NCBI RefSeq assembly: GCF_902170785.1
Contig: NZ_CABHYG010000024.1
Location: forward strand, 62,001-126,000
Length of the DNA stretch: 64,000 nt
Reading direction: 5' to 3'
Origin: Yersinia proxima
GTDB taxonomy: Bacteria > Pseudomonadota > Gammaproteobacteria > Enterobacterales > Enterobacteriaceae
Shown here: positions 44,758-61,562 of the stretch, piece by piece
Layout: each line of letters opens with the position of its first letter
Position numbering within the stretch: position 1 is the stretch's first letter
Made by a program: the position numbers and the translations under genes
Notes under the pieces: generated by a model
Told to the model about the DNA's origin: nothing
Database searches by the model: none
Seen by the model: the letters and a program-made list of their open reading frames with translations, nothing else

Positions 44758-45762
44758 ATGTTGAATACGCTAATTGTTGGTGCCAGCGGCTATGCCGGAG
44801 CGGAGCTTACCGCTTACCTTAATCGTCACCCACATATGAACATAACCGGTTTAACGGTTTCAGCGCAAAGTGCAGATGCAGGAAAATTACTTTCTGATCT
44901 GCATCCGCAACTAAAAGGCATTATTGATCTTCCGCTACAACCCTTGGTGGATGTGGCTCAAGCGGCAAAAGGTGTGGATGTTGTCTTCCTCGCTACCGCT
45001 CATGAGGTCAGCCATGATTTAGCGCCACAATTTCTGGCAGCGGGTTGTGTGGTATTCGATCTCTCCGGTGCATTCCGCGTCCAGGATACGGCGTTTTATA
45101 GTCAATATTACGGTTTTGAGCATCAACATGCCGATTGGCTGGATAAAGCAGTTTATGGATTAGCTGAATGGCAGGCTGAACAAATTAAACAGGCTCAATT
45201 GATCGCAGTACCAGGTTGTTATCCAACCGCATCCCAACTAGCGCTTAAGCCGTTGGTTGATGGTGATTTGCTCAATGATGCGCAATGGCCAGTGATTAAC
45301 GCCGTCAGCGGAGTCAGTGGCGCAGGGCGTAAAGCCAGTATTGGCAACAGTTTCTGTGAAGTGAGTTTGCAACCCTATGGTTTGTTTAATCATCGTCATC
45401 AGCCGGAAATTGTCGCCCACCTTGGTACGCCAGTGATTTTTACCCCACACTTGGGGAATTTCGCCCGCGGTATTTTGGCGACCATTACCTGCCGTCTGAA
45501 TGCGGGTGTGACAGCACAAGATATCGCTGAGGCATACCATAATGCCTATCAGGATAAGCCATTAGTGCGGCTCTATAAGCAAGGCGTACCGGCGCTAAAA
45601 GCGGTGGTGGGTCTACCTTTCTGTGATATCGGTTTCTCTGTGCAGGGTGAACATTTAATTATTGTCGCGACAGAAGATAACCTGCTCAAAGGCGCGGCGG
45701 CCCAGGCGGTGCAATGCATGAATATACGTTTTGGCTTTGCGGAAACCCAATCTCTGTTGTGA
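44758..45762 (+). CDS. argC: N-acetyl-gamma-glutamyl-phosphate reductase
   Basis: NADPH-dependent third step of arginine synthesis. Rossmann motif [11 protein letters not shown] at the N-terminus and catalytic Cys in [11 protein letters not shown]. 334 residues, normal. First gene of argCBH; 75 bases before argB. Confidence 0.96.
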
Positions 45763-45837
45763 GCAATAAAACGCTAAGCAGCAGAGGTTATAACCGAGCC
45801 GGAACTGACATTTTTTTCAATTATATCGAGGCGAAAC

Positions 45838-46614
45838 ATGATAAACCCGTTGGTCATTAAATTAGGTGGCGTGTTGCTCGACAGCGAAGAAGCGCTGGAA
45901 CGCCTGTTTACTGCATTGGTGACCTATCGTGAGAAGCATGAGCGCCCGCTTGTGATTATGCACGGTGGTGGTTGTCTGGTTGATGATCTGATGAAAAAAC
46001 TCGCGTTGCCGGTGGTGAAGAAAAACGGCCTGCGTGTGACACCAGCAGATCAAATTGACATTATTACTGGTGCATTGGCGGGTACTGCCAACAAAACATT
46101 GCTGGCCTGGGCGGTGAAACATGACATCAATGCTGTTGGCTTATGTTTGGGTGATGGTAACACCGTGTCGGTCACCCCGCTGGATGCAGCACTTGGTCAT
46201 GTGGGCAAAGCCGAAGCTGGCTCACCGGCTTTAGTACAAACCTTACTGGCCGCAAATTACATGCCTATCATCAGCTCTATTGGTATTACTAAAGAGGGCA
46301 GCCTGATGAATGTAAATGCCGATCAGGCCGCGACGGCTTTGGCCGCGACATTGGGAGCCGATTTAATTTTGCTGTCCGATGTTAGCGGGATTTTAGATGG
46401 TAAAGGCCAGCGCATTGCTGAAATGACCGCACAGAAAGCCGAGCAACTGATCGCGCAGGGCATCATCACTGACGGCATGGTGGTTAAAGTGAATGCGGCG
46501 CTGGATGCGGCTCGTTCATTGGGCCGTCCGGTGGATATCGCCAGTTGGCGTCATGCAGATCAGTTACCGGCGCTGTTTAACGGAGTGCCAATTGGCACGC
46601 GTATTTTGGCCTAA
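45838..46614 (+). CDS. argB: N-acetylglutamate kinase
   Basis: Phosphorylates N-acetylglutamate, the second step of arginine synthesis. Amino-acid-kinase fold: [25 protein letters not shown], and the catalytic [17 protein letters not shown] are visible. 258 residues, the E. coli-type short form that is not arginine-inhibited. An ERIC element begins right after its stop codon, between it and argH. Confidence 0.96.
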
Positions 46615-46740
46615 ATACCCTTCTTATTTGAAGTTGCAGCGGTGTTAGCGGCTCTTACTCACCCGAATCACTGACTTGAGTCAGCTCAACGGGATTCGTG
46701 CGTTTGCTGCCTTGCTGCCACTCCAACTACTTTGGGTATA
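46615..46740. repeat. ERIC element inside the arg operon (argB-argH gap)
   Basis: A copy of near-standard length in reverse orientation, starting one base after the argB stop (ACCCTTCTTATTTGAAG) and ending CTTTGGGTATA. It has a diverged core (CTCAACGGGATTCG). Its position within argCBH means it is transcribed and would form a hairpin in the operon mRNA. Confidence 0.82.
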
Positions 46741-46777
46741 TTATGAGTTTTTATTCTGAAATTAGGGAAGAAAGATT

Positions 46778-48151
46778 ATGGCATTGTGGGGCGGACGGTT
46801 CAGTCAGGCGGCAGATCAGCGTTTTAAGCAATTTAACGATTCCCTGCGGTTTGATTACCGACTGGCAGAGCAGGATATTATAGGTTCTGTTGCCTGGTCG
46901 AAAGCACTGGTCACGGTCGGCGTTTTAACGGCGGCAGAACAGCAACAACTTGAGCAGGCGCTCTCTGTTTTATTAGAGGAAGTTCAGGCCGATCCACAGG
47001 CTATTTTGAACAGTGATGCGGAAGATATTCACAGTTGGGTAGAAACCAAACTGATCGATAAAGTCGGTGATTTAGGCAAAAAACTGCATACCGGGCGCAG
47101 CCGTAACGACCAGGTGGCAACTGATCTGAAGTTGTGGTGCAAATTTCAGATAACCGAATTGGAAACCGCCGTGCAGCAATTGCAACAAGCGCTGGTTATC
47201 ACTGCCGAAGCCAATCAGGATGCTGTGATGCCGGGTTATACCCATTTGCAGCGTGCTCAACCTGTGACCTTTGCACACTGGTGTCTGGCCTATGCTGAAA
47301 TGCTGGCTCGTGATGAAAGCCGCCTGCAAGATACCTTGAAACGCCTGGATGTCAGCCCGTTAGGCAGTGGCGCTTTAGCTGGAACGGCCTACGCTATCGA
47401 TCGCGAACAACTGGCGGGTTGGTTAGGTTTTGCTTCGGCGACTCGTAATAGTCTGGACAGCGTTTCTGACCGTGACCATGTGTTGGAATTACTGTCTGAT
47501 GCCAGTATTGGTATGGTGCATTTGTCCCGTTTTGCTGAAGATCTGATTTTTTTCAACAGCGGCGAAGCTGCTTTCGTTGATTTATCGGATCGTGTTACGT
47601 CTGGCTCTTCCCTGATGCCGCAAAAGAAAAATCCAGATGCGCTGGAATTAATCCGTGGGAAATGTGGTCGGGTGCAGGGTGCATTGACTGGGATGATGAT
47701 GACGCTCAAAGGCCTGCCTCTGGCTTATAACAAAGACATGCAAGAAGACAAAGAAGGGCTGTTTGATGCGCTCGATACCTGGCTTGACTGCTTGCATATG
47801 GCGGCGCTGGTATTGGATGGCATTCAGGTGAAACGCCCGCGTTGCAAAGAAGCGGCTGAGCAAGGTTATGCCAATGCGACTGAGTTAGCTGATTATCTGG
47901 TTGCCAAAGGAGTGCCATTCCGTGAGGCACACCATATTGTTGGTGAAGCGGTGGTTGAGGCTATTCGTCAGGGGAAAGCATTAGAGGCTTTATCACTAAG
48001 TGACTTGCAAAAATTCAGTGCAGTGATTGGCGATGATGTTTATCCGATTCTGGCATTGCAATCTTGTTTAGATAAGCGAGTTGCTAAAGGCGGCGTGTCA
48101 CCCCAACAAGTCGCATCGGCCATTGCTGAGGCTAAAGCGCGTTTATTTTAA
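46778..48151 (+). CDS. argH: Argininosuccinate lyase
   Basis: Splits argininosuccinate to arginine and fumarate, the last arginine step. Fumarase-superfamily lyase with [24 protein letters not shown], and the signature [12 protein letters not shown] with catalytic Ser. 457 residues, normal. Ribosome site GGGAAGAAAG. Followed by a strong terminator, which closes the operon before the has locus. Confidence 0.97.
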
Positions 48152-48178
48152 TTCGCAGAGTATTGGTTAATGTTGCAG

Positions 48179-48205
48179 CGGGCCACAATTAATGTGGCCC
48201 GTTTT
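48179..48205 (+). terminator. Rho-independent terminator after argH
   Basis: Nine-base perfect stem CGGGCCACA/TGTGGCCCG (48179-48187 with 48193-48201) then TTTT. Confidence 0.92.
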
Positions 48206-48375
48206 GCGTTATAAATGCTTAAATATATTTTATTCGTTACTGGTTTTATTTATAAATCTTTAATCCACGTAACAGCTATCGCTATTTATCCATTATTTAT
48301 TTCTTCTACTAAATCAATATCATCAGTAACCTGCCATTTTATTCTTAATAGACAGTTGAGTTTATAACCACAAAT

Positions 48376-48394
48376 GATTATGATAATCATTATC
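48376..48394. promoter_or_regulatory. Fur box upstream of hasR
   Basis: GATTATGATAATCATTATC matches 18 of 19 positions of the canonical Fur consensus. It lies 322 bases before hasR, so either the mRNA has a long leader or a promoter nearer to hasR exists. It fits iron repression of the has locus. Confidence 0.88.
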
Positions 48395-48500
48395 AAATAA
48401 TGGCGATATAGTAAAACCTCTACTAGCATTAAAAAAATAAATGAATATTACTTAGGTGAAATAATAGTAGATCTTACTGAAAAATATTATTGAATCCTCT

Positions 48501-48520
48501 AATAAAGTAACTACTTTATT
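48501..48520. promoter_or_regulatory. Perfect dyad in the hasR leader
   Basis: AATAAAGTA and TACTTTATT are perfect nine-base inverted arms separated by two bases, followed by a short T run. With a two-base loop it is an unlikely terminator; a repressor or activator operator is more plausible. The remainder of the gap 48206-48715 is very AT-rich and has no gene. Confidence 0.5.
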
Positions 48521-48715
48521 TTTAAATTTAATGCCCCATTTATTTGATGACGTAACTTATTTAGCCCATGCAATAAAATATCATTTTAGTCACCGGATAT
48601 TTTTTATTATTTGGCGGTAATCCTATGGCTAAATTTCATAGTGAATACCATTTAAACAATGGCTAATAATTAATTGACGTATTGCTTTTATACTAATAAG
48701 GATGAAATCTTATAA

Positions 48716-51187
48716 ATGGATAATATAGTAAGAGATAAAAGAATAACAATAAATACGATAAATAGAGTTACATTCGGTATATTCTTGGCGTTAGCCACTC
48801 AGGGCTATTCAGAGAGAATCAATGCTGAAACCACCGTAATACCCGCCAATGAACATGACATAGTATTAGATGAGCTAAAAGTTGAGGGAACCAGTAACGC
48901 TCATGAGGGGGACTGGGTTTACGATGAGCTCCGTTCTGTTAGTGAAATTTCTCGCGAACAGCTCGATAGTCGACCAGCTCGCCATGCGGCGGATATATTG
49001 GAACAAACCTCCGGTGTCTATTCCAGCGTTAGTCAACAAGACCCTGCACTTTCAGTGAATATTCGTGGCATTCAGGATTATGGCCGCATCAATATGAATA
49101 TTGATGGCATGCGGCAAAACTTTATGAAAAGTGGTCACGGTCAGCGCCATGGTGTGATGTATATCGATCCGGAAATATTGGATAATGTGGTGATTGAAAA
49201 GGGGGTTACCAGCGGTATTGGCGGCGCGGGGGTAATAGGAGGTATTGCAACGTTCAATACAATTAATGCCAGTAACTTTCTTGAACTGGGGAAAGAAATT
49301 GGCGGCCAAATCCGCGTTCTTACCGGTGATAATGGCACAAATTTTATTGGCAGCGCCGTGCAGGCATTGGGGAATAAATATGGCGATATATTAATTGCTA
49401 TCAGCGAGCGCAATTTAAGCGATTATTGGCCGGGTAATAAAGGAACTTTGGGAGATATTCGATTTGGCACCGCCACAGAGAAGTTTAATTATGATATTAA
49501 GAATAATAAAGTGCCGTTCACCAATTATAGAATGCAGTCGCATCTGGCCAAGTTGGGCTGGAATCTACCCGCCGATCAACGATTGACATTTAGTTATCTA
49601 CAAACACAAATACATAGTCCTAATACTGGTTTTATGACTAACGTAAAAGAAGGCCCAGGAAAAGGAAGGCATGGCTGGATAAGCAGCAGTGTGAGTGATG
49701 TGCTGAATCGCAATATTGGGCTGGATTATAGCCTCAATCCCGGGCATATCGCCTGGCTGGGTATGACGGCAAAAATCTATTACGTTGATACCGATGATAA
49801 AACAGATACTCATAATGCCAATATTGTTTTCCGTGATAAATTTTGGACTCAAACCCGCTTAAGTACCCGTGGTTTACAACTGCAAAATACTAGTTTTTTT
49901 AGCCTTGCCGACTACCATCAATTCCGTCTCAACTATGGTCTTGAGTGGTTTAGTGACCGCTCCACCGGCAACTCAACGCATGCATCAATGCTTGGCATCA
50001 CCCCGCCCGGCAAGCGCACCATTACCAGCACCTTTGCCCAGCTTAACTACAACTATCATGATTGGCTGCGGCTGGAAGGCGGGCTGCGTTATGATCAATT
50101 TCGCTTACAGGGCAATACCTGGATGTACAGCAAAAATTTCCTCGGAGACTATACCCGTGAAAATCCCTGCCACAAAAAGAGACATGAGCAACATCTTGAA
50201 ATGAGAAAACGATGCTCATTTAACTGGCCGTTGAAAATGACCTGGGATATAGATCGCCGTGAACAACAACTGTCACCCACAGCAGCTCTCGGCATCAAAC
50301 CCGGCGTGCAGTGGCTGGAGTTTTTTGGTAATTACGGCAAATCCTGGCGGCCACCGGCAATTACTGAGGTGCTGGCCACGGGGAGCGCACATGGTCATGG
50401 TTGGATCTTACCCAATCCTGTGTTGGCAGCAGAGCATTCCAAAGCCTGGGAAGCTGGCATGAATATTCAACACAGCCATCTGTTTATTGCAGAAGATCGC
50501 TTAGTCGCCAAGCTGGCCTACTTTGATACTCGCGTTACTGATTATATCAATCTTGAGCTATCCAAGACTAAACCACTGCATGGCGGCGGGAGCTTTACCA
50601 ATGCGACTTATATTAATAATTTACTTGTTACTCGTTTTCGAGGCCTGGAATATCAATTAAGTTATGATATGGGGTTGTTTTATACCAGTTTAAATTATAC
50701 CAGAATGATTGGTGTAAATACTTTTTGTTCAAAAAGGGCCTGGCTAGGCGGTGTAAAGAATATAGCAAGTAATGGAAACTACTCTATTGATAGAGATGAT
50801 ATAAATAATAGAGTTGATTGCCTTGAAGCAAAGAACTTATTTGGTTCCTCTGCCTATTTACCGGGTGATCGCGGTAGCTTAACTTTAGGTGGAAGACTTT
50901 TTGATAAAAAGCTGGATCTCGGCACCGTTATTCGTTATAACAAAGGACACCAAGATAAATCAGTTATCAATAACAAAGGCCATGCTAATACCGCTTATGT
51001 TGCTGATTGGCCCAAGTATACCATATTTGATGTTTATGCCAGTTATAAGGTAACTAATAATTTAACTTTGCGTAGTTCAATCGAAAATATAACTAACCGC
51101 GCTTATCTTATTAGTTATGGTGATTCACTTTCTTTCGCGCCAAATCGTGGAAGAACTATTCAGGGTGGTTTTGAATATAAATTTTAG
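48716..51187 (+). CDS. hasR: TonB-dependent hemophore/heme receptor HasR
   Basis: Outer-membrane receptor that takes heme from HasA and imports it with TonB or HasB energy. An export signal (about residues 15-38), a TonB box around DIVLDELKV (48-56), plug domain (about 60-190; LEQTSGVYSSVSQQDP, VNIRGIQDYGRINMNIDG) and a 22-strand barrel ending in GGFEYKF are visible. The plug carries KSGHGQRHG (His141, His145), the place of the heme-ligand His in Serratia HasR; GSAHGHGW in an outer loop may supply the other. 823 residues. No N-terminal signalling domain, in keeping with the absence of hasI/hasS. Ribosome-site spacing (AAGGAT) is long. Confidence 0.93.
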   Translation: MDNIVRDKRITINTINRVTFGIFLALATQGYSERINAETTVIPANEHDIVLDELKVEGTSNAHEGDWVYDELRSVSEISREQLDSRPARHAADILEQTSGVYSSVSQQDPALSVNIRGIQDYGRINMNIDGMRQNFMKSGHGQRHGVMYIDPEILDNVVIEKGVTSGIGGAGVIGGIATFNTINASNFLELGKEIGGQIRVLTGDNGTNFIGSAVQALGNKYGDILIAISERNLSDYWPGNKGTLGDIRFGTATEKFNYDIKNNKVPFTNYRMQSHLAKLGWNLPADQRLTFSYLQTQIHSPNTGFMTNVKEGPGKGRHGWISSSVSDVLNRNIGLDYSLNPGHIAWLGMTAKIYYVDTDDKTDTHNANIVFRDKFWTQTRLSTRGLQLQNTSFFSLADYHQFRLNYGLEWFSDRSTGNSTHASMLGITPPGKRTITSTFAQLNYNYHDWLRLEGGLRYDQFRLQGNTWMYSKNFLGDYTRENPCHKKRHEQHLEMRKRCSFNWPLKMTWDIDRREQQLSPTAALGIKPGVQWLEFFGNYGKSWRPPAITEVLATGSAHGHGWILPNPVLAAEHSKAWEAGMNIQHSHLFIAEDRLVAKLAYFDTRVTDYINLELSKTKPLHGGGSFTNATYINNLLVTRFRGLEYQLSYDMGLFYTSLNYTRMIGVNTFCSKRAWLGGVKNIASNGNYSIDRDDINNRVDCLEAKNLFGSSAYLPGDRGSLTLGGRLFDKKLDLGTVIRYNKGHQDKSVINNKGHANTAYVADWPKYTIFDVYASYKVTNNLTLRSSIENITNRAYLISYGDSLSFAPNRGRTIQGGFEYKF

Positions 51188-51227
51188 TTATTAAAATAAA
51201 GAGACTAAATATTTAATTTAAAATATT

Positions 51228-51276
51228 CAGATGGAATAATAATTTCATCTGTAGTCACGTGACTCAATGATGAGTC
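51228..51276 (+). promoter_or_regulatory. Paired stem-loops between hasR and the first hasA
   Basis: CAGATG/CATCTG (51228-51251) is followed at once by a perfect 12-base palindrome AGTCACGTGACT (51253-51264) and GACTCA/TGAGTC (51261-51276). There is no T run. They may be an RNA processing or stability element that raises hasA over hasR, or a DNA-binding dyad. Confidence 0.45.
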
Positions 51277-51309
51277 ATATTATTGTTGTTAACGATAAGG
51301 AAATTTATT

Positions 51310-51921
51310 ATGACAGTAACTATCAAATATCAAAGTCAATTCAGTAATGATACTCTAACTTCTTATACTAAACAGTGGGCCACGGCTCATGGTGATATAA
51401 AAGATACCCAAGCCGAGGGTTATTCCAAGGACTTTGGGCAATTTGCCGGTGGTACTATGTTTGATGGTACTCAATATTCAGTTGGCAGCTCGCACAGTGG
51501 TGTTAGTACTGCGATGATTGTTGAAGGAAATCTGGAGTACACCTTTATGCCTCAGCATACGTTCTACGGTAAAATAGACAGTCTGGAGTTGGGTGAGAAC
51601 TTGAGCGATAATGCCAATGGCATTGGTAAACGGCTTGACAAACTGCAATTGAAGATGTCCGATTTAGATATTACCGGTGGATTTGACCCTAGTAAGAATA
51701 TGGCAGAGAACCATCAAGGGGATATGCATAAATCCATATATGGACTTATGCGAGGTAATGCCGATCCACTGTTGGAAGTACTCACCGCTAAAGGCATTGA
51801 TGTTAATACCCCACTGAAAGATATGGCTATCGCCAGCCAATTCGAAGTTATGGTATCAGATATGCCAATGATTGATACCGTTGGTGTAGTTGAAAGCAGT
51901 GATATGTTATTAGCTGCTTAA
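51310..51921 (+). CDS. hasA: Canonical heme acquisition hemophore HasA
   Basis: Secreted heme-binding protein that carries heme to HasR. 203 residues without N-terminal signal; opens MTVTIKYQSQF and ends SDMLLAA, the C-terminal type I export signal. The heme strand EYTFMPQHTFYG holds Tyr77 and His83, matching the Tyr75/His pair of Serratia and Yersinia pestis HasA; GTQYSVGSSHSG and ENHQGDMHKSIYG also match Y. pestis as remembered. The other face has Gln34 near the place of Serratia His32, as in Y. pestis where no His is present. Start at 51310 after AAGGAAA; an in-frame start at 51283 is not supported. First of five tandem copies. Confidence 0.92.
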   Translation: MTVTIKYQSQFSNDTLTSYTKQWATAHGDIKDTQAEGYSKDFGQFAGGTMFDGTQYSVGSSHSGVSTAMIVEGNLEYTFMPQHTFYGKIDSLELGENLSDNANGIGKRLDKLQLKMSDLDITGGFDPSKNMAENHQGDMHKSIYGLMRGNADPLLEVLTAKGIDVNTPLKDMAIASQFEVMVSDMPMIDTVGVVESSDMLLAA

Positions 51922-51992
51922 GTAAGACTTCCGGAAAAGGATTTTCTGGTCGGATCTAGCTGTTGTGCAATAAGTGTTAGTGTAGTTGTAAT

Positions 51993-52060
51993 AATAAGTG
52001 TAATAAGTGTAATAAGTGTAATAAGTGTAATAAGTGTAATAAGTGTAATAAGTGTAAGTG
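51993..52060 (+). repeat. Tandem repeat of seven 9-bp units between hasA copies 1 and 2
   Basis: Seven perfect AATAAGTGT units (51993-52055) plus a partial eighth. It lies in the 204-base gap after the canonical hasA. The number is likely variable between strains by slippage. It is not in a gene; a reverse-strand frame of Tyr/Thr repeats is a by-product. Confidence 0.9.
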
Positions 52061-52064
52061 CGCC

Positions 52065-52100
52065 ACCACCGTACTTTGCTATATTGGGTGCGGCGGTGGT
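52065..52100 (+). terminator. Hairpin between hasA copies 1 and 2 (possible attenuator)
   Basis: ACCACCG (52065-52071) pairs with CGGTGGT (52094-52100); a 22-base loop and a weak TTCATATTTTA tail. It could partly stop transcription so that the canonical hasA is made in excess over the downstream genes. Confidence 0.45.
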
Positions 52101-52125
52101 TCATATTTTATAAAAGGATTTAAAT

Positions 52126-52806
52126 ATGACAATTACTATTAAATATCAGGAAGAATTTAAATACGAAACTATTTCCTCTTATACTTATTGGTGGGCCAAT
52201 GACTTTGGTGACGTAGTTTCGGAATCGAGTGAAAAAAAACATCACATATACTCGGCTGGGCCAACTCTTCCCACTGTTGGTGTGAAATATGCAATTGAAA
52301 GCACTTCCCCTCAAAGTAAAGCTGCAATAGTGATGGAATCTAAGGGAATGCATGCGGCGACGGTACTTAAAGCTAATGGAATCAAGGAATCAATGCAACC
52401 CATCTTAATTCCTGGTGAGTGTGAGGGTTTGCAGTTTGGCAATTATTTAATCCCTATTCCAGATGCTGATTTAAATTCTCCTCAATATCATCAACTTCAA
52501 CTCCAACAAGTACAATTGGAATTCAGTGGGCTAGCTATTTCAGATGACATTGATATTTCGATGGTTGAGGTTATTTTTGCGATGTTTGTCAACAATGAAT
52601 ATCCAAGCAATATGGAACTTGGTGTATACGGTCTGCTGAGAGGAAATAATGCTCATATATTGGAAATTCTTCAATCCCAAGGAGTTGACGTCAATACACC
52701 GCTCAAAGATTTAGCAATTGCCAGTCAGTTTGATGTTGTTACTAATATTCCAGTGATTGATACAGTGGGTGCAACAGATGAAAGCAGTATATTATTAGCT
52801 GCTTAA
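52126..52806 (+). CDS. HasA-like secreted protein, divergent copy 2
   Basis: 226 residues. The N-terminus MTITIKYQEEF and the motif ETISSY..W match HasA, and GVDVNTPLKDLAIASQF, IPVIDTVG and the terminal SSILLAA export signal match the other copies. The middle (about 70-130) has no counterpart to the YT....HT heme strand: AAIVMESKGMHAATVL stands in its place, with a longer loop. So heme ligation by the standard Tyr is not possible here. Ribosome site AAAAGGAT. Its last 141 bases are nearly the same as those of copy 3. Confidence 0.85.
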   Translation: MTITIKYQEEFKYETISSYTYWWANDFGDVVSESSEKKHHIYSAGPTLPTVGVKYAIESTSPQSKAAIVMESKGMHAATVLKANGIKESMQPILIPGECEGLQFGNYLIPIPDADLNSPQYHQLQLQQVQLEFSGLAISDDIDISMVEVIFAMFVNNEYPSNMELGVYGLLRGNNAHILEILQSQGVDVNTPLKDLAIASQFDVVTNIPVIDTVGATDESSILLAA

Positions 52807-52863
52807 GTTGTTCCTTGGTGTAATTATGAATCATAGATTAATCATTAACAAAAGGGTGTTGTT

Positions 52864-53490
52864 ATGACTGTAACTATAAAATATAGTAAATTAATTAAAG
52901 ATGAAACAATCTTAACCTATACTCAACAGTGGGCCACTGCTTATGGAGACTTGACTCATGCATTTAATATTGAGGAACTATATGGTTTCTCTAGAGGCAC
53001 AGACATCAGTAATAATAAAATCGCCATTGCTGGATTTCAAAGCCCTTATGAGAATGAAGCAATAATTATTGGAGGGACTTTAATGGGTGAAGATGGACGA
53101 ATGTCTAGTGAGAATTATATCCAATATCTTGAATTTGGTGATTTATTAATTCCTCATACTGATAATACTGCAATGCAGCTTGAGCAAGTACAGTTGAAGA
53201 TAGATGGTTTAAATATTAAAAATGACTTTTATAATTCAGTATGTTCATTGTCTCGTACCATGAGTGCCGTACCAGAAAGGCCTTACGAAGGTGGCGAGGA
53301 TCAAGGTACGTACAATTTATTGAGAGGTAATCCCATCCCAATGTTGAAAATTCTTCAATCCCAAGGAGTTGACGTCAATACACCGCTCAAAGATTTAGCA
53401 ATTGCCAGCCAGTTTGATGTTATTACCAATATTCCAGTGATTGATACAGTGGGTACAACAGATGAAAGCGGATTATTATTAGTTGCTTAA
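52864..53490 (+). CDS. HasA-like secreted protein, divergent copy 3
   Basis: 208 residues. Opens MTVTIKYSKLI with ETILTYTQQWATAYGD; ends SGLLLVA. The heme-strand region reads AIIIGGTLMGEDGRMSSE, without the Tyr or His ligands. The C-terminal third is close to copy 2 (about eight differences in 141 bases), which suggests recent duplication or gene conversion. It lies 57 bases after copy 2. Function unknown; export by HasDE is inferred from the C-terminal tail. Confidence 0.85.
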   Translation: MTVTIKYSKLIKDETILTYTQQWATAYGDLTHAFNIEELYGFSRGTDISNNKIAIAGFQSPYENEAIIIGGTLMGEDGRMSSENYIQYLEFGDLLIPHTDNTAMQLEQVQLKIDGLNIKNDFYNSVCSLSRTMSAVPERPYEGGEDQGTYNLLRGNPIPMLKILQSQGVDVNTPLKDLAIASQFDVITNIPVIDTVGTTDESGLLLVA

Positions 53491-53534
53491 TTTTACTGAT
53501 TCTAATATTAACCTTAAATTAAAAGGATATTAAT

Positions 53535-54176
53535 ATGACAATAACGATTAAGTATCATGAAAATATAGCCAATGAAACTATCTCTTCATACAGCCAACAG
53601 TGGGCTACTAATTTTGGCAACATGCTATGGACGACTGGGGTTGATTATACTTTCAATGCTTCTGCTTATCCCATACCTCCTGCTGATAGCATAAAATATG
53701 TAGCAGCAAGTACTCACCATAATCAGGTAGAGAGTAATGCCGCGATAGTGATAGCACTTAAAAAAGTTGCAGATGATCCATCTATTGACGTCAACGTCAG
53801 CCTGGAGTTTGGTGAAGCCTTAGTTCCTATTATCAATGACGGTATGAAAAAACAACCACATCAGCTTCTTTTACAGCAAGTGCAATTAGATATAAGTGGG
53901 TTAGATATTCGGGTTGATGTTGAAAGCTCAATGCCCACCTTGGATTACGCCTTATGGCAAGATATTTACTATCAGGGAGGTAAGGACTTGGGAGTCTATA
54001 ATTTGTTGAAAGGTAACACGGATCCACTGTTGGATATTCTTAAAGCTCAAGGTATTGACGTCAATACACCACTCAAAGACTTAACAATTGCCAGCCAGTT
54101 TGATGTTATTACCGGTACACCAGTGATTGATGCGGTGGGTACAGCTAATAACACGGAAATATTATTAGCTGCTTAA
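53535..54176 (+). CDS. HasA-like secreted protein, divergent copy 4
   Basis: 213 residues. Opens MTITIKYHENIANETISSYS and ends EILLAA with the family's IDVNTPLKDLTIASQF. The heme strand is replaced by AAIVIALKKVADDPSI, with no Tyr or His at the ligand positions, although THHNQVE carries two adjacent His upstream. QVQLDISGLDI matches the corresponding strand in copies 2 and 3, so copies 2-4 form a subgroup. Ribosome site AAAAGGATATT. Confidence 0.85.
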   Translation: MTITIKYHENIANETISSYSQQWATNFGNMLWTTGVDYTFNASAYPIPPADSIKYVAASTHHNQVESNAAIVIALKKVADDPSIDVNVSLEFGEALVPIINDGMKKQPHQLLLQQVQLDISGLDIRVDVESSMPTLDYALWQDIYYQGGKDLGVYNLLKGNTDPLLDILKAQGIDVNTPLKDLTIASQFDVITGTPVIDAVGTANNTEILLAA

Positions 54177-54234
54177 ATTCTTCTCTGACCTGGCGCTGAA
54201 CTACATCTTAGTCATAAGTTAAAAGGATATTATT

Positions 54235-54831
54235 ATGACGGTAACTATCAGATTTAATGAAAGTATAAAAGATGAAACCATTCACTCATATACCCAAAAA
54301 TGGATAGATGACTTTAATCTTCCCACCGAAGATGGGCGTAACTTTTCTGGTTTTCATGGTCTTAAAAATACTATGATTAGGCAGTTCGAACAATTTTCGG
54401 TCATTAATACATCGGGAGATAAAGCCACAATAATTTTGAGTGGGGAGATAAGATTTAATTTATTTAACAAGACTCTCTACGGCAAAGTGGAAAGTTTAGA
54501 GTTAGGTAAGAAAGGGATTATTCAAAATGGAGAAAATAACATTATAATTGAAAAGCATTTAGTGGAGCCTCAACTGATATTTAATAATTTAAATATCATT
54601 GGTGAGTATGATTATTCGGAGAATGCAACCGAAAACCAGAAGAATGATCTGCATCAGATAGGGTTTAATTTAAAGAAAGGAAATGCAGATATATTCTTGG
54701 AGATATTAAAAACGCAAGGTATTGATGTCAATACACCACTTAAAGATATGGCGATTTCCAGCCAATTAAACATGCCAGTCATTGACACAATAGGCGCGAC
54801 TGTTGGCAATGATATATTGTTGGTTGCTTAA
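54235..54831 (+). CDS. HasA-like secreted protein, divergent copy 5
   Basis: 198 residues. Opens MTVTIRFNESIKDETIHSYT and ends NDILLVA. Of the four divergent copies it keeps the heme strand best: GEIRFNLFNKTLYGKVESLELG-like, where Phe74 stands in place of the ligand Tyr and Lys79 about where the His stood. It is closer to copy 1 in the ENQKNDLHQIGFNL segment (copy 1 ENHQGDMHKSIYGL). Possible meaning: descended from the canonical copy with ligands lost. Very AT-rich; 58 bases after copy 4. Confidence 0.85.
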   Translation: MTVTIRFNESIKDETIHSYTQKWIDDFNLPTEDGRNFSGFHGLKNTMIRQFEQFSVINTSGDKATIILSGEIRFNLFNKTLYGKVESLELGKKGIIQNGENNIIIEKHLVEPQLIFNNLNIIGEYDYSENATENQKNDLHQIGFNLKKGNADIFLEILKTQGIDVNTPLKDMAISSQLNMPVIDTIGATVGNDILLVA

Positions 54832-55006
54832 ATATACTGGAGGATTGTTTCGGATGGATAAATGATGCCATCACAATACATTTCTATATTTACTACTTTG
54901 GTGGTTATTATGGAAATTAACTTACCCATGAATTTATATATTCTGACAAATAAACTATTTATATAAAAATTGGTTGCCCGTGATTTTACGATAAAATATT
55001 ATCAGA

Positions 55007-56827
55007 ATGGAAATGGATGCCATGAAGTCACAAAAAATTGCCGACCTTTCTTCAGATTCGCTGACAATTCTTTCTGTTCTGGCCGGCCACAAGAAGAGCT
55101 TGTGGGGGATCGGACTTTTTACAGCAGTGATTAATCTTTTAATGTTGGCTCCTGCTATTTATATGTTGCAAGTTTATGACCGTGTTCTGGCATCAGCTAA
55201 TACCATGACTTTGTTGATGCTCACTATTCTTGTTCTGGGAATATTTGTCTTTATTGGCTTACTTGAGTGGATTCGCAGCGCGATAGTCATTCGGCTCGGA
55301 ACGCGTATTGATATGCAACTTAATCAACGGGTTTTTAATGCCGCCTTTGCGTCCCAGCTTATGGGGCATACCACTCCAGCCGCCCAAGCGCTGAATGACC
55401 TCACCTCTTTACGGCAGTTTGCGACCGGTAATGCCCTGTTTGCCTTTTTTGATGCCCCCTGGTTCCCACTTTATTTACTGGTTATTTTTGTGCTCCATCC
55501 CTGGCTAGGTGTATTAGCGGCATCTGGGGCTTGTGTACTGATTTTTTTGGCCTGGCTTAACCAGTGGGTGTGTAAAAAGCCATTGAAAGAAGCATCCACC
55601 GTCACCTCACAAGCAACACAACAGGCGAATGCAAACTTGCGTAATGCAGATGCAATTGAAGCGATGGGGATGCTAGATGCATTACGCGAACGTTGGTTAG
55701 CACAGCATTCACGTTTCCTTTATCAGCAAAATGTAGCCAGTGATAAAAGCAGTCAGGTCACTGCGGCATCCAAATCCAGTCGTCAGGCTTTGCAATCAAT
55801 GATGTTAGGGCTGGGGGCATTACTGGTCATTGATGGTGCAATTACGGCTGGTGTCATGATTGCCGGCTCCATCTTAATCGGACGAGTATTGGGGCCTATT
55901 GATCAATTGATTGCCGTCTGGAAACAATGGAGCCATGCACGATTATCTTATTTGCGCCTCGTCCATTTATTGGCTGAGCATCCACCTGTACCAACAGGTA
56001 TGGCGCTCTCCCCCCCCACAGGAAAGCTCAATGTGACGCAACTGACGGTGTGTAAGCCGGGTACACATATTCCCATTTTATATTCCATTGATTTTGAATT
56101 GCAGGCTGGTGATGTTTTGGGTGTTTTAGGAGCATCGGGCAGTGGCAAATCGACTTTAGCAAAACTATTGGTGGCATGTAAACCGGCCTTTAGCGGCTCG
56201 GTGCGGCTGGATAGCGCAAATATTTCTCAATGGGATAAAACTCACCTGGGTCAATTTATTGGCTACTTGCCGCAAGACATTCAGCTATTTCGCGGTTCGA
56301 TTGCGGAAAACATTGCACGCTTTGGCACCATAGATACCGCAAAAGTAGTTGCGGCAGCTCAAATGGCGGGGGTACACGATTTAATCCTACATTTACCGCA
56401 GGGCTATGACACTCAGCTTGGCGACGGGGGGGAGGAACTATCCGGCGGTCAGCGTCAGCGTATTGCTTTGGCGCGGGCAATGTATGGTGTGCCACGACTT
56501 ATTGTGTTGGATGAACCCAATGCCAGTCTGGATAAGGATGGCGAAAAAGCCTTATTGGCAAGCATAGCCCAACTCAAACAGCAGGGTTGTACCATTGTGA
56601 TGATCACCCATAAGCCAGAATTATTATCAGGTAGCGATTTCTTGTTGTTACTCAATAAGGGGCGGATGGAGTTGTTCGATCGTACTTCGATGGTTCTACA
56701 GCAGATAAAGGGCACAGATAAACCGGTGGTCAATGCCGAAATCAAAACACCGGGCAACCAAAAATCTTGGGGTGGCGGTATGTCATATGCTGTCGTTCCT
56801 GCTCGCGCAGCATCACAAAAATCATAA
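55007..56827 (+). CDS. hasD: Type I secretion ABC transporter HasD
   Basis: Inner-membrane ABC exporter that powers HasA secretion through HasE and an outer-membrane TolC-like channel. 606 residues: about six membrane segments in the N-terminal 300, then the ATPase domain with GASGSGKS (375-382), LSGGQRQRIALARAM signature, Walker B LIVLDEP and ITHK. No C39 peptidase domain. The 175-base gap 54832-55006 after the last hasA-like gene contains AT-rich DNA. In-frame ATGs at 55007, 55013 and 55022 are alternatives. Its stop TAATG overlaps the first ATG of the next duplicated leader. Confidence 0.93.
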   Translation: MEMDAMKSQKIADLSSDSLTILSVLAGHKKSLWGIGLFTAVINLLMLAPAIYMLQVYDRVLASANTMTLLMLTILVLGIFVFIGLLEWIRSAIVIRLGTRIDMQLNQRVFNAAFASQLMGHTTPAAQALNDLTSLRQFATGNALFAFFDAPWFPLYLLVIFVLHPWLGVLAASGACVLIFLAWLNQWVCKKPLKEASTVTSQATQQANANLRNADAIEAMGMLDALRERWLAQHSRFLYQQNVASDKSSQVTAASKSSRQALQSMMLGLGALLVIDGAITAGVMIAGSILIGRVLGPIDQLIAVWKQWSHARLSYLRLVHLLAEHPPVPTGMALSPPTGKLNVTQLTVCKPGTHIPILYSIDFELQAGDVLGVLGASGSGKSTLAKLLVACKPAFSGSVRLDSANISQWDKTHLGQFIGYLPQDIQLFRGSIAENIARFGTIDTAKVVAAAQMAGVHDLILHLPQGYDTQLGDGGEELSGGQRQRIALARAMYGVPRLIVLDEPNASLDKDGEKALLASIAQLKQQGCTIVMITHKPELLSGSDFLLLLNKGRMELFDRTSMVLQQIKGTDKPVVNAEIKTPGNQKSWGGGMSYAVVPARAASQKS

Positions 56828-56864
56828 TGTTAACTATATATCCACATGTTAACTATATATCCAC
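56827..56864 (+). repeat. Two 19-bp tandem copies at the hasD-hasE junction
   Basis: ATGTTAACTATATATCCAC occurs at 56827-56845 and immediately again at 56846-56864. Because 19 is not a multiple of three, the ATG of each copy opens a different frame; only the second is in frame with hasE. Confidence 0.92.
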
Positions 56865-56881
56865 GGATGGAGTCATCACTA

Positions 56882-58210
56882 ATGTTACCTAAATCTGACC
56901 ATTCTTCGGCTAATAATTTAAGTCAACATCCACCACTACAAACCAATAGCGGGAGATATCTTGGCTTGGGTGCATTATTGGTTTGTGGCGGCTTTATCGG
57001 TTCTTTGTTGTGGGCGGGGCTGGCTCCTTTGGATAAAGGTATTGCGGTAATGGGGCATATTGTTGTGGCAGAGAACCGTAAGTTGGTTCAACCGCTGCAA
57101 GGAGGGCGTATCCAGCAATTACATGTTTCTGAAGGCGATGACGTCACGCAAGGACAATTACTTATCACTCTGGATGATACTGCGCTACTTAGTCATCGCG
57201 ATAATTTACAAAATCAGTATTTGGGTGCGCTTGCTCAGGAGTCTCGTCTCACGGCCGAGCAACATGAATTACCGACAATCACCTTCTCTCCTGCATTGCT
57301 TCAACATCCAGCACAAGCTGTAGTTGAGCGTAATACAGTGTTGCAGCAGCAACTATTTCTCCATCGTCGCCAGGCACAGTTGAGCGAAATTGCGCGATTA
57401 TCAGCACAAATTACCCGTCACGAAAGTCGGTTGGATGGATTACAAGTGGCACGTAGCCATAACCAGCGCCAATTTGACCTATTCCAGCGGCAATTGCAGG
57501 GGGTTCAGTTATTGGCAAAAAATGGTCATGTTGCTCAAAGCCAACTGTTAGAGATGGAGCGTCAGGCGATTTCATTGAGTGCAAATATAGAAAAGAATAC
57601 CAGTGAGATTTTGGAGCTTCACAAGCAAATTAGCGAAACAGAGCAGCATATCTTACAACGCCGTGAGCAGTATAAAAGTGAGAATCGCGAACAACTGGCC
57701 AAAGCACAGCAAAACACCCAAGAGTTAGAGCAGCGTTTGAGTGTCGCGGAATACGAATTAGATAACACGCGAATTTATGCACCGGTCAGTGGCACGGTTA
57801 TCGCGCTCGCGCTACATACTGTGGGGGAGATGGTCAGCACCGGGCAAACATTGATGGAATTGGTTCCCAGTGGGCAACCACTCCTGGCCGAGGCTCAGCT
57901 TCCGGTTTCCTTAATTGACAAGGTGATAGTCGGGCTACCGGTGGATCTGAATTTCTCGGCTTTTAATCAAAGCAACACTCCGCGCTTACAAGGTTCGGTA
58001 TTACACGTAGGTGCGGATCGAATACAGCATCAGCACACTTTAGAGCCTTATTATCCTTTAACTGTCGCCATTGATACCACGCAAACCGAGCTGGAAATTC
58101 GGCCCGGTATGTCGGTTGATATTTTTATCCGTACTGGGGAGCGCTCATTACTTAATTATCTGTTTAAACCCTTAACAGATCGTCTGTACGTCGCTTTTGC
58201 TGAAGAGTGA
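56882..58210 (+). CDS. hasE: Type I secretion membrane-fusion protein HasE
   Basis: Periplasmic adaptor of the HlyD family that links HasD with the outer-membrane channel. Short cytoplasmic tail, one membrane segment (about residues 26-46), lipoyl-like half motifs VQPLQGGRIQQLHVSEGDDV, a long coiled coil (about 110-300), and a beta-barrel domain with APVSGTVIALALHTVGEMV. Start chosen at 56882 (MLPKSDHSS), nine bases after GGAG; in-frame ATGs at 56846 and 56867 are weaker. 442 residues. Follows hasD. Confidence 0.92.
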   Translation: MLPKSDHSSANNLSQHPPLQTNSGRYLGLGALLVCGGFIGSLLWAGLAPLDKGIAVMGHIVVAENRKLVQPLQGGRIQQLHVSEGDDVTQGQLLITLDDTALLSHRDNLQNQYLGALAQESRLTAEQHELPTITFSPALLQHPAQAVVERNTVLQQQLFLHRRQAQLSEIARLSAQITRHESRLDGLQVARSHNQRQFDLFQRQLQGVQLLAKNGHVAQSQLLEMERQAISLSANIEKNTSEILELHKQISETEQHILQRREQYKSENREQLAKAQQNTQELEQRLSVAEYELDNTRIYAPVSGTVIALALHTVGEMVSTGQTLMELVPSGQPLLAEAQLPVSLIDKVIVGLPVDLNFSAFNQSNTPRLQGSVLHVGADRIQHQHTLEPYYPLTVAIDTTQTELEIRPGMSVDIFIRTGERSLLNYLFKPLTDRLYVAFAEE

Positions 58211-58256
58211 TTTTGGAGGTAACTAACTGATAATAATTGATATAGTGATTTAATTG

Positions 58257-59069
58257 ATGAATATACAGCAAACTAATCGCAGTATTATGCTTTGGTGGGG
58301 CAGTGCGTTCTTAACAAGTAGTATCCATGTTTATTTAATATGGATGATGAGTAACCCATTCTTGCCTCCGACAGATATCGATGTCACGCCTGTGGCGATT
58401 ATGCTCGCGTTGTCGGCAGAACCGGAGTTTACTCCGAATTTGCAGCAAGACCCGGTGGTGGGTATCAGTCAGGACTTCAACGAGCCAACAGCAGAGCCGT
58501 TGGAAGATCAGTCAGAGGAGGTGAGTCATATACTGACTGCGCCTGAGCATACTGATGCTTCATTGGTTGTTGAAAAAAAAGTGGAAGTTCCCCCCAAAAA
58601 ACGGCCACAACAAAAAATCAGCGCGCCGCGCCGCCCTGTCAGTAAACCGGTAACTGAAAACGCTGATAATCCTTCTACACCTGCCGTCGTCATCAGTACG
58701 CCCTTGTCTGGCGAAAGTCATCAAGTTGCAGCAGCGGCGAATAGCCATTCTTTGCAAAGTCAAAAGAGCAAAATGAATTGGAAAAGCCGCTTACAAGGGC
58801 ATCTGGCAGGATTTAAACGTTATCCCCCGATAGCCAGAAAACAGCACCAGCAAGGGACAGCAATTATTCGTTTTGTGGTCAATAAAGAGGGATATGTACT
58901 ATCGACGATGCTGATTAAGAGCAGTGGGGCCGCTGCTTTAGATCAAGAAGCATTGGCAGTGATTAAACGCGCTCAACCCTTACCATTGCCACCTGCCGAG
59001 CTGTTATCAAATGGGCAAGTCTCATTGGCTATGCCTGTTGATTTTGATCTTAAGAATAAAAAACGATGA
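58257..59069 (+). CDS. hasB: HasB, TonB-like energiser dedicated to HasR
   Basis: TonB paralog spanning the inner membrane and periplasm to drive HasR. One N-terminal membrane anchor (about residues 11-30), a Pro/Glu/Lys-rich linker (PPKKRPQQKISAPRRP) and a C-terminal TonB domain beginning FKRYPPIARKQHQQG and containing VNKEGYVLS and VKR-AQPLPLPP type segments. 270 residues. ATG at 58257 is preferred to the adjoining TTG; no clear ribosome site is adjacent, a GGAGG lies about 38 bases upstream. Last gene of the has operon. Confidence 0.9.
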   Translation: MNIQQTNRSIMLWWGSAFLTSSIHVYLIWMMSNPFLPPTDIDVTPVAIMLALSAEPEFTPNLQQDPVVGISQDFNEPTAEPLEDQSEEVSHILTAPEHTDASLVVEKKVEVPPKKRPQQKISAPRRPVSKPVTENADNPSTPAVVISTPLSGESHQVAAAANSHSLQSQKSKMNWKSRLQGHLAGFKRYPPIARKQHQQGTAIIRFVVNKEGYVLSTMLIKSSGAAALDQEALAVIKRAQPLPLPPAELLSNGQVSLAMPVDFDLKNKKR

Positions 59070-59110
59070 ATAGCGCAATATTCTCGGGGCAGTACGGATA
59101 ACTAAAGGAT

Positions 59111-59134
59111 AAAAAACCGGGCGTAAAGCCCGGC
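59111..59134 (-). terminator. Terminator after the flavoprotein disulfide reductase gene
   Basis: On the minus strand GCCGGGC-TTTAC-GCCCGG(TTTTTT): six-base stem CCGGGC/GCCCGG and a run of T. It lies 31 bases past that gene's stop, and also sits after hasB on the other strand. Confidence 0.85.
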
Positions 59135-59164
59135 TGAATTATTGTTAAAAGATTAGCCGCAATA

Positions 59165-60613
59165 TTATTCACCAGGGCAGCGCAGGCAGCGTTCGGCCTC
59201 GTCAGTACCTAGTTTCAATTTAGACTGCAAATCACGCAATGCTGTACGCAAACCTTCCTCAATCACGGGGTGGTAGAATGGCATATCCAGCATCTGGTTT
59301 ATGGTCATTTGCTGTTGATGTGCCCAGGCCAGCAGATGGGCAATATGTTCAGCACTTGGCCCCATCATCTCGGCACCCAGGAAACGACCTGTTCCCTGTT
59401 CGCCATAAACTCGCAAGATACCTTTGTTTTTCAGCATGACCCGTGAGCGGCCTTGATTCTCAAAAGAGACTTCACCAATTTCAAAGCAACCGCATGCACT
59501 GAATTTTTGCGACAATTCACGAAACGTAGAACCAACCATCGCGATTTGTGGGTCAGAGAACACCACGGAGATTGGGCTGCGGCGCAAACCTGGCACCACT
59601 TCAGGGAACCCACCGGCGTTTACTCCCGCGATACGAGCCTGATCACTGGCTTCATGCAGTAAAGGTAATTGGTTGCTGGCATCACCAGCAATAAAGATAT
59701 GCGGCACGCTAGTCTGCATTGTCAGCCGGTCAGCTGGCGGAACACCACGATCGTCAAGCACCAGTGAGGTATTTTCCAAACCCAGTTTATCGACATTCGG
59801 GCGGCGGCCTGTGGCAGCTAAAACATAATCCACCATGATTTCTTGTGGTGAACCGGCTTCATCCAGATAGCGGATAAAGACTTTATCCCCTTCGCGCTGC
59901 ATCACTTCAACTTTCACATCTGGGTTGAGATAGAACTCTTCACCCAAGGTTTTTGCTGCGTAATTACGCACAATACTGTCTGTTAGCGGGCCGACACCAC
60001 CACCCACGCCGAACATTTTGACTTGGACACCAAGTCGATGCAGTGCCTGGCCAAGTTCCAGCCCGATAACCCCTGGCCCGAAAACGGCGACCGATTCGGG
60101 TAAATCGTCCCAGTTGAATACGTCGTCGTTGACGATAAGCCGATCACCCAACTCATTCCAGGCGGCAGGCCAGCTTGGGCGAGAGCCAGTAGCAATGACA
60201 ATGCGCTGTGCAACAATACGAGTGTGATCATCAACTTGTAGTGTGTTGTCATCAATAAAACGGGCATAACCCTGAATTTTGTCATTAGCCGGAATGTTAT
60301 CGACACCTTCCAGCACAAAACCCACAAAGCGGTCGCGCTCGCGTTTTACGCGATCCATAACTTCGCGGCCATTAATCAGAATGTTGCCTTGCGGGTGGAT
60401 ACCAAAACCAGGGGCTTTTTCAATCTGATGTACAGCTTCAGCTGCCGCAATCAGCAGTTTGGATGGCATGCAACCGACGCGGGCACAGGTAGTGCCGTAC
60501 TCGCCACCTTCAATCATTACTACATTGGGGGTCGCCAGTTTGGCGGCGCGATAAGCGCCAAGCCCGGCAGTGCCGCCGCCAATCACGGCGACATCAACGT
60601 TTAAGGTTTTCAT
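59165..60613 (-). CDS. Flavoprotein disulfide reductase (dihydrolipoamide dehydrogenase-like)
   Basis: 482-residue class I pyridine nucleotide-disulfide oxidoreductase. FAD motif VIGGGTAGLGAY, redox CARVGC (Cys43, Cys48), the second nucleotide motif VFGPGVIGLELG, and the C-terminal FYHPVIEEGL His-Glu pair are visible. It ends in DEAERCLRCPGE, a Cys pair typical of this subfamily, which is not the Lpd of the pyruvate dehydrogenase complex. Start 60613 (MKTLNVDVAV). A terminator-like TTCG hairpin is only 18 bases upstream. Located beside a hybrid peroxiredoxin and oxyR, a role in thiol or peroxide defence is inferred. Confidence 0.88.
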   Translation of the reverse strand: MKTLNVDVAVIGGGTAGLGAYRAAKLATPNVVMIEGGEYGTTCARVGCMPSKLLIAAAEAVHQIEKAPGFGIHPQGNILINGREVMDRVKRERDRFVGFVLEGVDNIPANDKIQGYARFIDDNTLQVDDHTRIVAQRIVIATGSRPSWPAAWNELGDRLIVNDDVFNWDDLPESVAVFGPGVIGLELGQALHRLGVQVKMFGVGGGVGPLTDSIVRNYAAKTLGEEFYLNPDVKVEVMQREGDKVFIRYLDEAGSPQEIMVDYVLAATGRRPNVDKLGLENTSLVLDDRGVPPADRLTMQTSVPHIFIAGDASNQLPLLHEASDQARIAGVNAGGFPEVVPGLRRSPISVVFSDPQIAMVGSTFRELSQKFSACGCFEIGEVSFENQGRSRVMLKNKGILRVYGEQGTGRFLGAEMMGPSAEHIAHLLAWAHQQQMTINQMLDMPFYHPVIEEGLRTALRDLQSKLKLGTDEAERCLRCPGE

Positions 60614-60630
60614 GTCTGCTCCATAACAGG

Positions 60631-60655
60631 AAAAAAGGGTAGGCCGAAGCCTACC
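60631..60655 (-). terminator. TTCG-tetraloop terminator just upstream of the flavoprotein gene
   Basis: On the minus strand GGTAGGC-TTCG-GCCTACC is followed by CTTTTTT. It is between the hybrid peroxiredoxin gene and the flavoprotein gene, with its T run ending only 18 bases before the latter's ATG. Confidence 0.88.
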
Positions 60656-60659
60656 AAGC

Positions 60660-60802
60660 ATACCCTTCGTATTTGAAGTCGCAGGGTTGTTAGCTACGTT
60701 TCCGCACCCGAATTACTTACTGGTCTTGACCTTAAAAAATAAGTAAGCTCATCGGGATGAGTTCACTTGCTGCCTAGCTGCAACTCCAATGACTTTGGGT
60801 AT
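60660..60802. repeat. ERIC element, slightly longer copy
   Basis: Reverse-orientation ERIC (ATACCCTTCGTATTTGAAG...ACTTTGGGTATT) of about 143 bases, longer by an inserted CTTGACC-rich stretch near the centre. It lies between the hybrid peroxiredoxin and flavoprotein genes. Confidence 0.85.
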
Positions 60803-60830
60803 TCACTATATCTTCATTCTATTAATATTA

Positions 60831-61562
60831 TTAAGCAGATAAGTAATTTTCTAAATCATCACTACCACCAATGTGGCGGCCACCGATAAACACTTGTGGC
60901 ACTGTCCCACGGCCAGTAACAGCGCGTAGACTGACGGTGGTGGCATCTTTACCCAGCACGATTTCTTCATACTGAATACCGCGATCTTGCAGCATCTGTT
61001 TGGCTTTGGCGCAGAATGGGCAGCCCGGTTTGGTAAAGACAGAAACTGATTCCTGCACTTTAAAATCAGGAGCCAAATATTTCAGCATGGTGTCAGCGTC
61101 AGACACTTCAAACGGGTCGCCTGGTTTGTTCGGCTCGACAAACATTTTCTCAACCACGCCGTTACGTACCAGCATGGAATAACGCCATGAACGTGGCCCG
61201 AAGCCCAGATCCGCTTTCTCAACCAGCATATTCATACCTTTGGTGAATTCGCCGTTGCCATCAGGAATGAAAGTGATATTTTCTGCATTCTGATCGGCTT
61301 TCCAGGCATTCATCACGAAAGTATCATTGACCGATACACACAGAATGCTATCAACACCGTGCTGTTTAAACACACCGGCCAGTTCGTTATAACGCGGCAG
61401 ATGGCTGGAAGAACAAGTCGGGGTAAAGGCACCCGGTAGTGAAAATACGATGACAGTTTTATTGTTAAACAACTCATCGGTAGTTACATCAACCCACTGG
61501 TCGCCCTGACGGGTATGGAAAGTGACTTGTGGGATTTTTTTACCTTCTTGGCTAGTAAACAT
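60831..61562 (-). CDS. Hybrid peroxiredoxin-glutaredoxin (Prx5 type)
   Basis: A 243-residue fusion that reduces hydrogen peroxide with glutathione through its own glutaredoxin domain. Peroxiredoxin-5 domain at 1-165 with peroxidatic Cys50 in [14 protein letters not shown]; glutaredoxin domain from about 172 with CPFC (Cys181, Cys184), TVPQVFIGG and GGSDDL. The same fusion is known from Haemophilus, Vibrio and others. It is divergent from oxyR, which suggests OxyR regulation. Confidence 0.92.

Follow-up and report, generated by a model that had tools for sequence, protein, structure and literature searches.

Tandem hasA paralogs in the has operon of Yersinia: HasA-fold proteins that are probably not hemophores

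Why should a has locus carry five genes of the hemophore family side by side? HasA is the textbook hemophore and usually encoded by one gene per locus, whereas five hasA-like genes are present in the locus analyzed here, which lies in a stretch of 64,000 nucleotides from Yersinia proxima (NCBI RefSeq assembly GCF_902170785.1, contig NZ_CABHYG010000024.1, positions 62,001 to 126,000 of the forward strand; in the following, the window). The list of open reading frames (ORFs) together with Pfam and NCBIfam profiles identified a complete has locus with hasR, the five hasA-like genes (51310-54831), hasD, hasE and hasB in this order. A preliminary description, made from the letters alone, had regarded the five genes as a neofunctionalised family of secreted proteins. 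This is right in so far as the extra genes are derived from HasA, open, constrained and most likely changed in function, but the five are not equivalent hemophores. With a probability of roughly 0.6 we assume that they belong to a HasA-fold family that is probably Fur-controlled and probably exported by HasDE, and whose extra members do not hold heme in the classical manner but bind a different target. On the basis of sequence, copies 2-5 are therefore best called HasA-fold paralogs, not hemophores.

All five genes are ORFs without internal stops on the plus strand between hasR and hasD, and their matches to the Pfam profile PF06438 (HasA) cover the full protein length far beyond chance and exceed the curated cut-off of 26.3 bits in each case, so that a row of five intact HasA-family genes, as described before, is confirmed. 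As none of the five copies matched an NCBIfam profile at E 0.01, no finer family name is available from this source. A search of the genome revealed no further HasA gene and only one clear HasR (remaining matches at most 31% identical), in agreement with the single flanking receptor of the preliminary description. The opening MT[VI]TI[KR] and the C-terminal ending LL[AV]A are indeed common to all five copies, while other shared motifs hold in part: the ETI segment occurs in copies 2-5 and is DTL in copy 1, copies 1, 4 and 5 contain an unaltered IDVNTPLKD where copies 2 and 3 read VDVNTPLKD, and the ribosome site is AAAAGGA for copies 2, 4 and 5, AAAAGGG for copy 3 and AAGGAA for copy 1. The absence of a HasA fold had been named as a possible refutation; structure prediction, run on copy 3 alone, gave the HasA fold for this copy. 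Copies 2-4 have extra residues in the head.

HasA was found in all 25 Yersinia genomes, including that of the window, and 19 of them contain two to five copies. In total, this search for relatives across the genus yielded 67 hasA-like genes, none of them with a stop inside the profile match, and the tandem set is thus not peculiar to the window locus. As three genomes with four or five copies each (G007, G016, G019) are assembled in 1-3 contigs, the copy count is not simply an assembly artefact. Among the named loci, five copies were found in Y. artesiana and Y. aldovae, four in Y. thracica, three each in Y. pekkanenii and Y. vastinensis, two each in Y. aleksiciae, Y. alsatica, Y. frederiksenii and Y. 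rohdei, and a single one in Y. similis, Y. ruckeri, Y. nurmii and Y. massiliensis. In one locus (L045, genome G011) hasR is split into two ORFs of 617 and 247 residues, and both hasA-like genes are open. Two further loci, L048 (G014, same protein as L064 of Y. massiliensis) and L049 (G015), have a single hasA and a gap of 452-453 bases before hasD, compared with 147-255 bases after the first copy in the other Yersinia genomes; no convincing match to hasA remnants was detected in this gap.

In a tree of the 67 Yersinia copies and eight outsiders, the first copies (C1, not one clade) stand apart from the classes P2-P9, and the 36 copies of P2-P7 form one group (support 82/90). The window contains C1, P2, P3, P4 and P5 in this order. 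In a HasD+HasE tree with midpoint root, the multi-copy group splits first into two parts (supports 81/81 and 87/97), and P2-P5 occur in both. The origin of these classes therefore probably predates the species sharing them, and transfer of the locus between species is a possible alternative account. The order is C1-P2-P4-P3-P5 in G001 and G004 and C1-P2-P3-P4-P5 in the window, whose P3 copy clusters with those of G018, G019 and G023 and not with that of G004.

First and extra copies differ in the heme ligands. A passage of PMC9627568 gives His32 and Tyr75 as heme ligands of Serratia HasA and Tyr75 alone for Y. pestis HasA. Tyr75 is retained in all 25 first copies (in copy 1 as codon 51538-51540, Tyr77 of its own numbering) but in only 4 of 42 extra copies, namely one of four in P5 and three of four in P8 (Fisher test, p = 1.4e-14, shared descent ignored). 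At this column copies 2, 3, 4 and 5 have A, G, a gap and F, respectively, in an approximate alignment of the loop. The column of His83, residue 83 also in copy 1, is occupied by histidine in 24 of 25 first copies and in none of the four window paralogs, and no first copy has a histidine at column 32 (0/25). Copies 2, 3 and 4 score higher against the Y75A mutant structure 4y1q than against 4xzd, in which the tyrosine is kept (73.3/71.9, 67.0/66.1 and 68.1/67.9 bits), and copies 1 and 5 behave in the opposite direction (223.8/227.9 and 92.7/94.9 bits), all of these differences being small.

The loop around Tyr75 differs strongly between first and extra copies. Its mean identity to copy 1 of the same genome is 0.00-0.29 in the paralog classes (P2 0.01, P3 0.03, P4 0.00), compared to 0.64 among first copies. 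After realignment of each class alone, no window of P4 and P6 is less conserved than this loop, and in P2, P3 and P7 it ranks among the lowest three; in C1 and P5 it does not. By comparison, three strands of P4 reach a conservation of 0.94, 0.92 and 1.00 (0.69, 0.64 and 0.55 in C1 of the same four genomes), and those of P2 point in the same direction (0.79, 0.86 and 0.80 versus 0.71, 0.77 and 0.57 in C1). Such a shift of constraint from the heme loop to the beta-sheet suggests that P2 and P4 may have a protein partner. Median pairwise ratios of nonsynonymous to synonymous substitution (dN/dS) are 0.22 for C1, 0.28 for P2 and P3, 0.22 for P5, 0.21 for P6, 0.26 for P7, 0.36 for P8 and 0.29 for the single pair of P9, with the lowest value in P4 (0.16 over 6 pairs). 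Judged from these ratios, the extra copies are under purifying selection.

In contrast to the heads, the export tails have stayed closer to the canonical copy, with class means of 0.47-0.64 identity to copy 1 of the same genome. Copies 2 and 3 share 0.93 of their last 123 bases and 0.50 of the head; where their residues agree, the codons are identical in 0.94 of cases in the tail and 0.56 in the head. Three further pairs from different classes combine tail values of 0.92-0.93 with head values of 0.54-0.67, compared to means of 0.55 (tail) and 0.49 (head) over 1792 inter-class pairs. The evidence for tail exchange thus consists of four pairs with a synonymous identity of at least 0.92, and in two of these a P3 copy is paired with a canonical first copy. 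A conflict between head and tail class, seen in 33 of 67 copies, was set aside as a measure of exchange, since it is inflated by the short tail.

Several points weigh against this picture. Titles of solved structures name the HasA mutants Y75A, Y75H, H83A and H32A as well as HasA loaded with synthetic metal complexes, therefore the loss of Tyr75 does not prove a loss of heme binding. Four extra copies retain the tyrosine, P4 and P6 have other histidines in the head, three of four P5 copies have a histidine one residue before the His83 column, and at this distance between copies the loop can be aligned only with uncertainty. The Tyr75 loop of P6 is only little below that of C1 of the same genomes (0.67 versus 0.73), and strand conservation is not generally raised in P3, P5 and P7, except for strand 107-116 in P3 and P5 and strand 64-74 in P5. 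Furthermore, gaps were scored as mismatches, which makes loops of variable length look less conserved, segment conservation mixes buried and exposed residues, and dN/dS was taken from pairwise counts, some at high dS (synonymous divergence). Finally, tails are barely more alike within genomes (0.61, 74 pairs) than between them (0.56, 1438 pairs), which indicates exchange in some cases and not in general.

Some of these points would fit with a different explanation, in which the extra copies are further hemophores that widen the range of heme sources and hold heme or a porphyrin by another residue or by a hydrophobic pocket alone. The solved mutant and metal-complex structures have the HasA fold, P4 contains two adjacent invariant histidines (class consensus THHNQ; in three members they are residues 61 and 62), the His83 column is histidine in all three P6 copies, and the few copies with Tyr75 could be read in the same way. 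However, the ligand loop is just the part that is least or nearly least conserved in five of the classes, and the Y. pestis type, according to the passage of PMC9627568 mentioned above, depends on Tyr75 alone, without a fallback His32 in the canonical Yersinia copies. We therefore regard additional hemophores as unlikely.

Besides the heme loop, loop 31-44, strand 45-58, which we take to be part of the beta-face, and hairpin 99-106 diverge nearly as far as the Tyr75 loop, with class means for strand 45-58 of 0.06-0.31 relative to copy 1. In Serratia, loop A2, which contains Tyr75, and the beta-face contact HasR, as described in a part of PMC6981324. As the Tyr75 loop and strand 45-58 are among the most changed segments, HasR contact of copies 2-5 appears doubtful, and the earlier suggestion of a possible common receptor for all copies finds no support. 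The same evidence makes it quite improbable that the extra copies are cargo-free proteins directed to HasR, which compete with HasA, regulate its docking or shield the receptor, even though the genome has one clear HasR and the paralogs are acidic like HasA (class mean isoelectric point 4.3-4.9), which would suit the positively charged long loops of HasR reported in the same part of PMC6981324. A history of redundant duplication, in which the extra genes served dosage for a short time and are now in decay, might explain a copy number of 1-5 across species and single-copy genomes (G014, G015) inside the multi-copy group, but median dN/dS of 0.16-0.36 in every paralog class, the occurrence of most classes in several species and the absence of stops in all 67 matches leave this a very remote explanation.

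With regard to expression, we used a 19-base Fur consensus. The Fur-box-like match upstream of hasR is expected 0.03 times by chance in the window, and 21 of the 25 Yersinia regions fetched have a site with at most three mismatches before hasR. Of the remaining four, one is the truncated region of the window genome, whose site can be seen in the window itself, two include hardly any upstream DNA or none, and in one hasR is disrupted. Within 150 bases before any hasA copy no Fur-like site was found (at least five mismatches), therefore one iron-controlled unit is the simplest reading of the sequence. Separate promoters for the copies were considered and rejected, as no copy is preceded by a Fur-like site and sigma-70-like sites are at chance level (35 found versus 32.9 expected in 48100-59300). 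No known structured RNA reached the gathering score in 45000-61000. The hairpin 3' of copy 1 was not matched in stability by any of 200 shuffles, and across the 25 genomes the folding energy of the gap downstream of the first hasA ranges from -32 to -105 kcal/mol, values that carry no shuffle control. The tandem repeat directly before this hairpin is perfect and possibly a site of variable length. Neighbouring hairpins are also located between hasR and copy 1 (51225-51300; -23.4 kcal/mol, z -3.84).

Outside of Yersinia the expectation of one hasA per locus, also stated in the preliminary description, holds. In a sample of Enterobacteriaceae HasA was detected in 16 of 392 genomes, of which six are Yersinia and the other ten have one copy each, and in a sample of the genus Pseudomonas 62 of 63 HasA-bearing genomes (398 in total) have a single copy. 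The exception, Pseudomonas sp. GD04091 (L123), contains a second hasA-like gene (13111-13704) directly 3' of hasA with Asn, Ser and Phe at the columns of His32, Tyr75 and His83, and is the only one with two HasA matches among 66 named loci outside of Yersinia. A wide class sample of 369 genomes says little, as HasA was found there solely in the genome of the window. Sixteen of the named loci, from Providencia, Acinetobacter and others (L080, L081, L083-L090, L093, L095, L103, L125, L134, L138), have a HasR relative and no HasA match in the fetched stretch; part of them could be heme receptors that work without a hemophore, or loci cut off by the end of a contig.

Taken together, copy 1 would be the working hemophore, probably Fur-controlled together with hasR, exported by HasDE, binding heme via Tyr75 as in the Y. 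pestis type and passing it to HasR. Copies 2-5 would be old paralogs which retained the HasA scaffold and the C-terminal export tail, gave up heme coordination by Tyr75 and changed the loops that touch HasR. We infer that they are made under the same iron signal as copy 1, leave the cell via the same HasDE and act extracellularly as binding proteins for something other than heme. The partner could be a heme-carrying protein or its breakdown products from an animal or soil environment. In a more tentative extension, to which we give slightly less than even odds, the has operon of most examined Yersinia species would be a modular export cassette, in which the scaffold and a conserved but partly recombining C-terminal tail address proteins to HasDE and the heads were repurposed several times into iron-regulated extracellular binders without the Tyr75 hold on heme; a similar change would have occurred separately in at least one Pseudomonas.

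Table 1. Features of the has locus in the window (window coordinates).
Feature	Position	Strand	Remarks
Fur-box-like operator	48376..48394	+	upstream of hasR; 1 mismatch to 19-base Fur consensus
hasR, TonB-dependent heme/hemophore receptor	48716..51187	+	PF00593/PF07715; TIGR01785 548 bits
Copy 1, canonical hasA, class C1	51310..51921	+	PF06438 216.4 bits; 227.9 bits to HasA 4xzd
9-base tandem repeat TAATAAGTG, 7.3 copies	51992..52057	+	between copies 1 and 2
Strong hairpin, possible attenuator	52054..52116	+	3' of copy 1; -25.1 kcal/mol, z -4.09
Copy 2, hasA paralog class P2	52126..52806	+	PF06438 74.5 bits; Ala at Tyr75 column
Copy 3, hasA paralog class P3	52864..53490	+	PF06438 63.7 bits; Gly at Tyr75 column; 3' tail almost identical to that of copy 2
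Copy 4, hasA paralog class P4	53535..54176	+	PF06438 63.2 bits; shortened heme loop, Tyr75 absent
Copy 5, hasA paralog class P5	54235..54831	+	PF06438 84.4 bits; Phe for Tyr75, Lys at His83 column
hasD, type I secretion ATP-binding cassette (ABC) exporter	55007..56827	+	TIGR01842 PrtD 732.7 bits
hasE, HlyD-family adaptor	56846..58210	+	TIGR01843 358.2 bits
hasB, TonB-like protein	58257..59069	+	PF03544 55.8 bits

The receptor of the window is 61-84% identical to 11 other Yersinia HasR proteins. HasA paralogs without the classical ligand, which are kept by selection beside a ligand-bearing copy, offer a route to what else this scaffold binds, and multi-copy has loci make it possible to ask if more than one protein leaves the cell via HasDE and if helper proteins take part in heme piracy. 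Furthermore, naming every Yersinia match to PF06438 "hemophore" or "hasA" is probably wrong for most extra copies, and surveys of hasA alleles may mix different genes. In the accessible parts of the open-licence literature, neither multiple hasA genes in Yersinia nor HasA paralogs devoid of the ligand turned up. Certain groups of Y. enterocolitica are reported to have a haemophore gene cluster of their own (PMC5320568), and isolates are reported to differ in hasA presence and alleles (PMC12193566), both in passages that do not mention several copies per genome.

A family of heme scavengers whose members differ in heme-binding properties is known from Porphyromonas and Tannerella as HmuY, as far as described in parts of PMC12106395 and PMC6200708. 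The likeness lies in this variation within one scavenger family, whereas HmuY is an unrelated protein and its members are described as heme binders. To our knowledge, they also do not form a tandem set in one operon. A further related system is the has operon of Serratia marcescens with the order hasR-A-D-E-B. The window shares this gene order, the receptor, exporter, adaptor and TonB-like protein, but has five hasA-like genes instead of the one in each of four fetched Serratia loci (L072, L073, L074, L135). A close known protein is the hemophore HasA of Y. pestis/pseudotuberculosis (4jer, 4xzd), which copy 1 resembles over the full length; Tyr75 and His83 are conserved at their columns, and His32 is absent. 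Homology to it extends to copies 2-5 (best scores 67-95 bits), and copy 3 has the same predicted fold; they differ from it in the lack of Tyr75, in the changed segments that contact HasR and, in copies 2-4, in the additional residues of the head.

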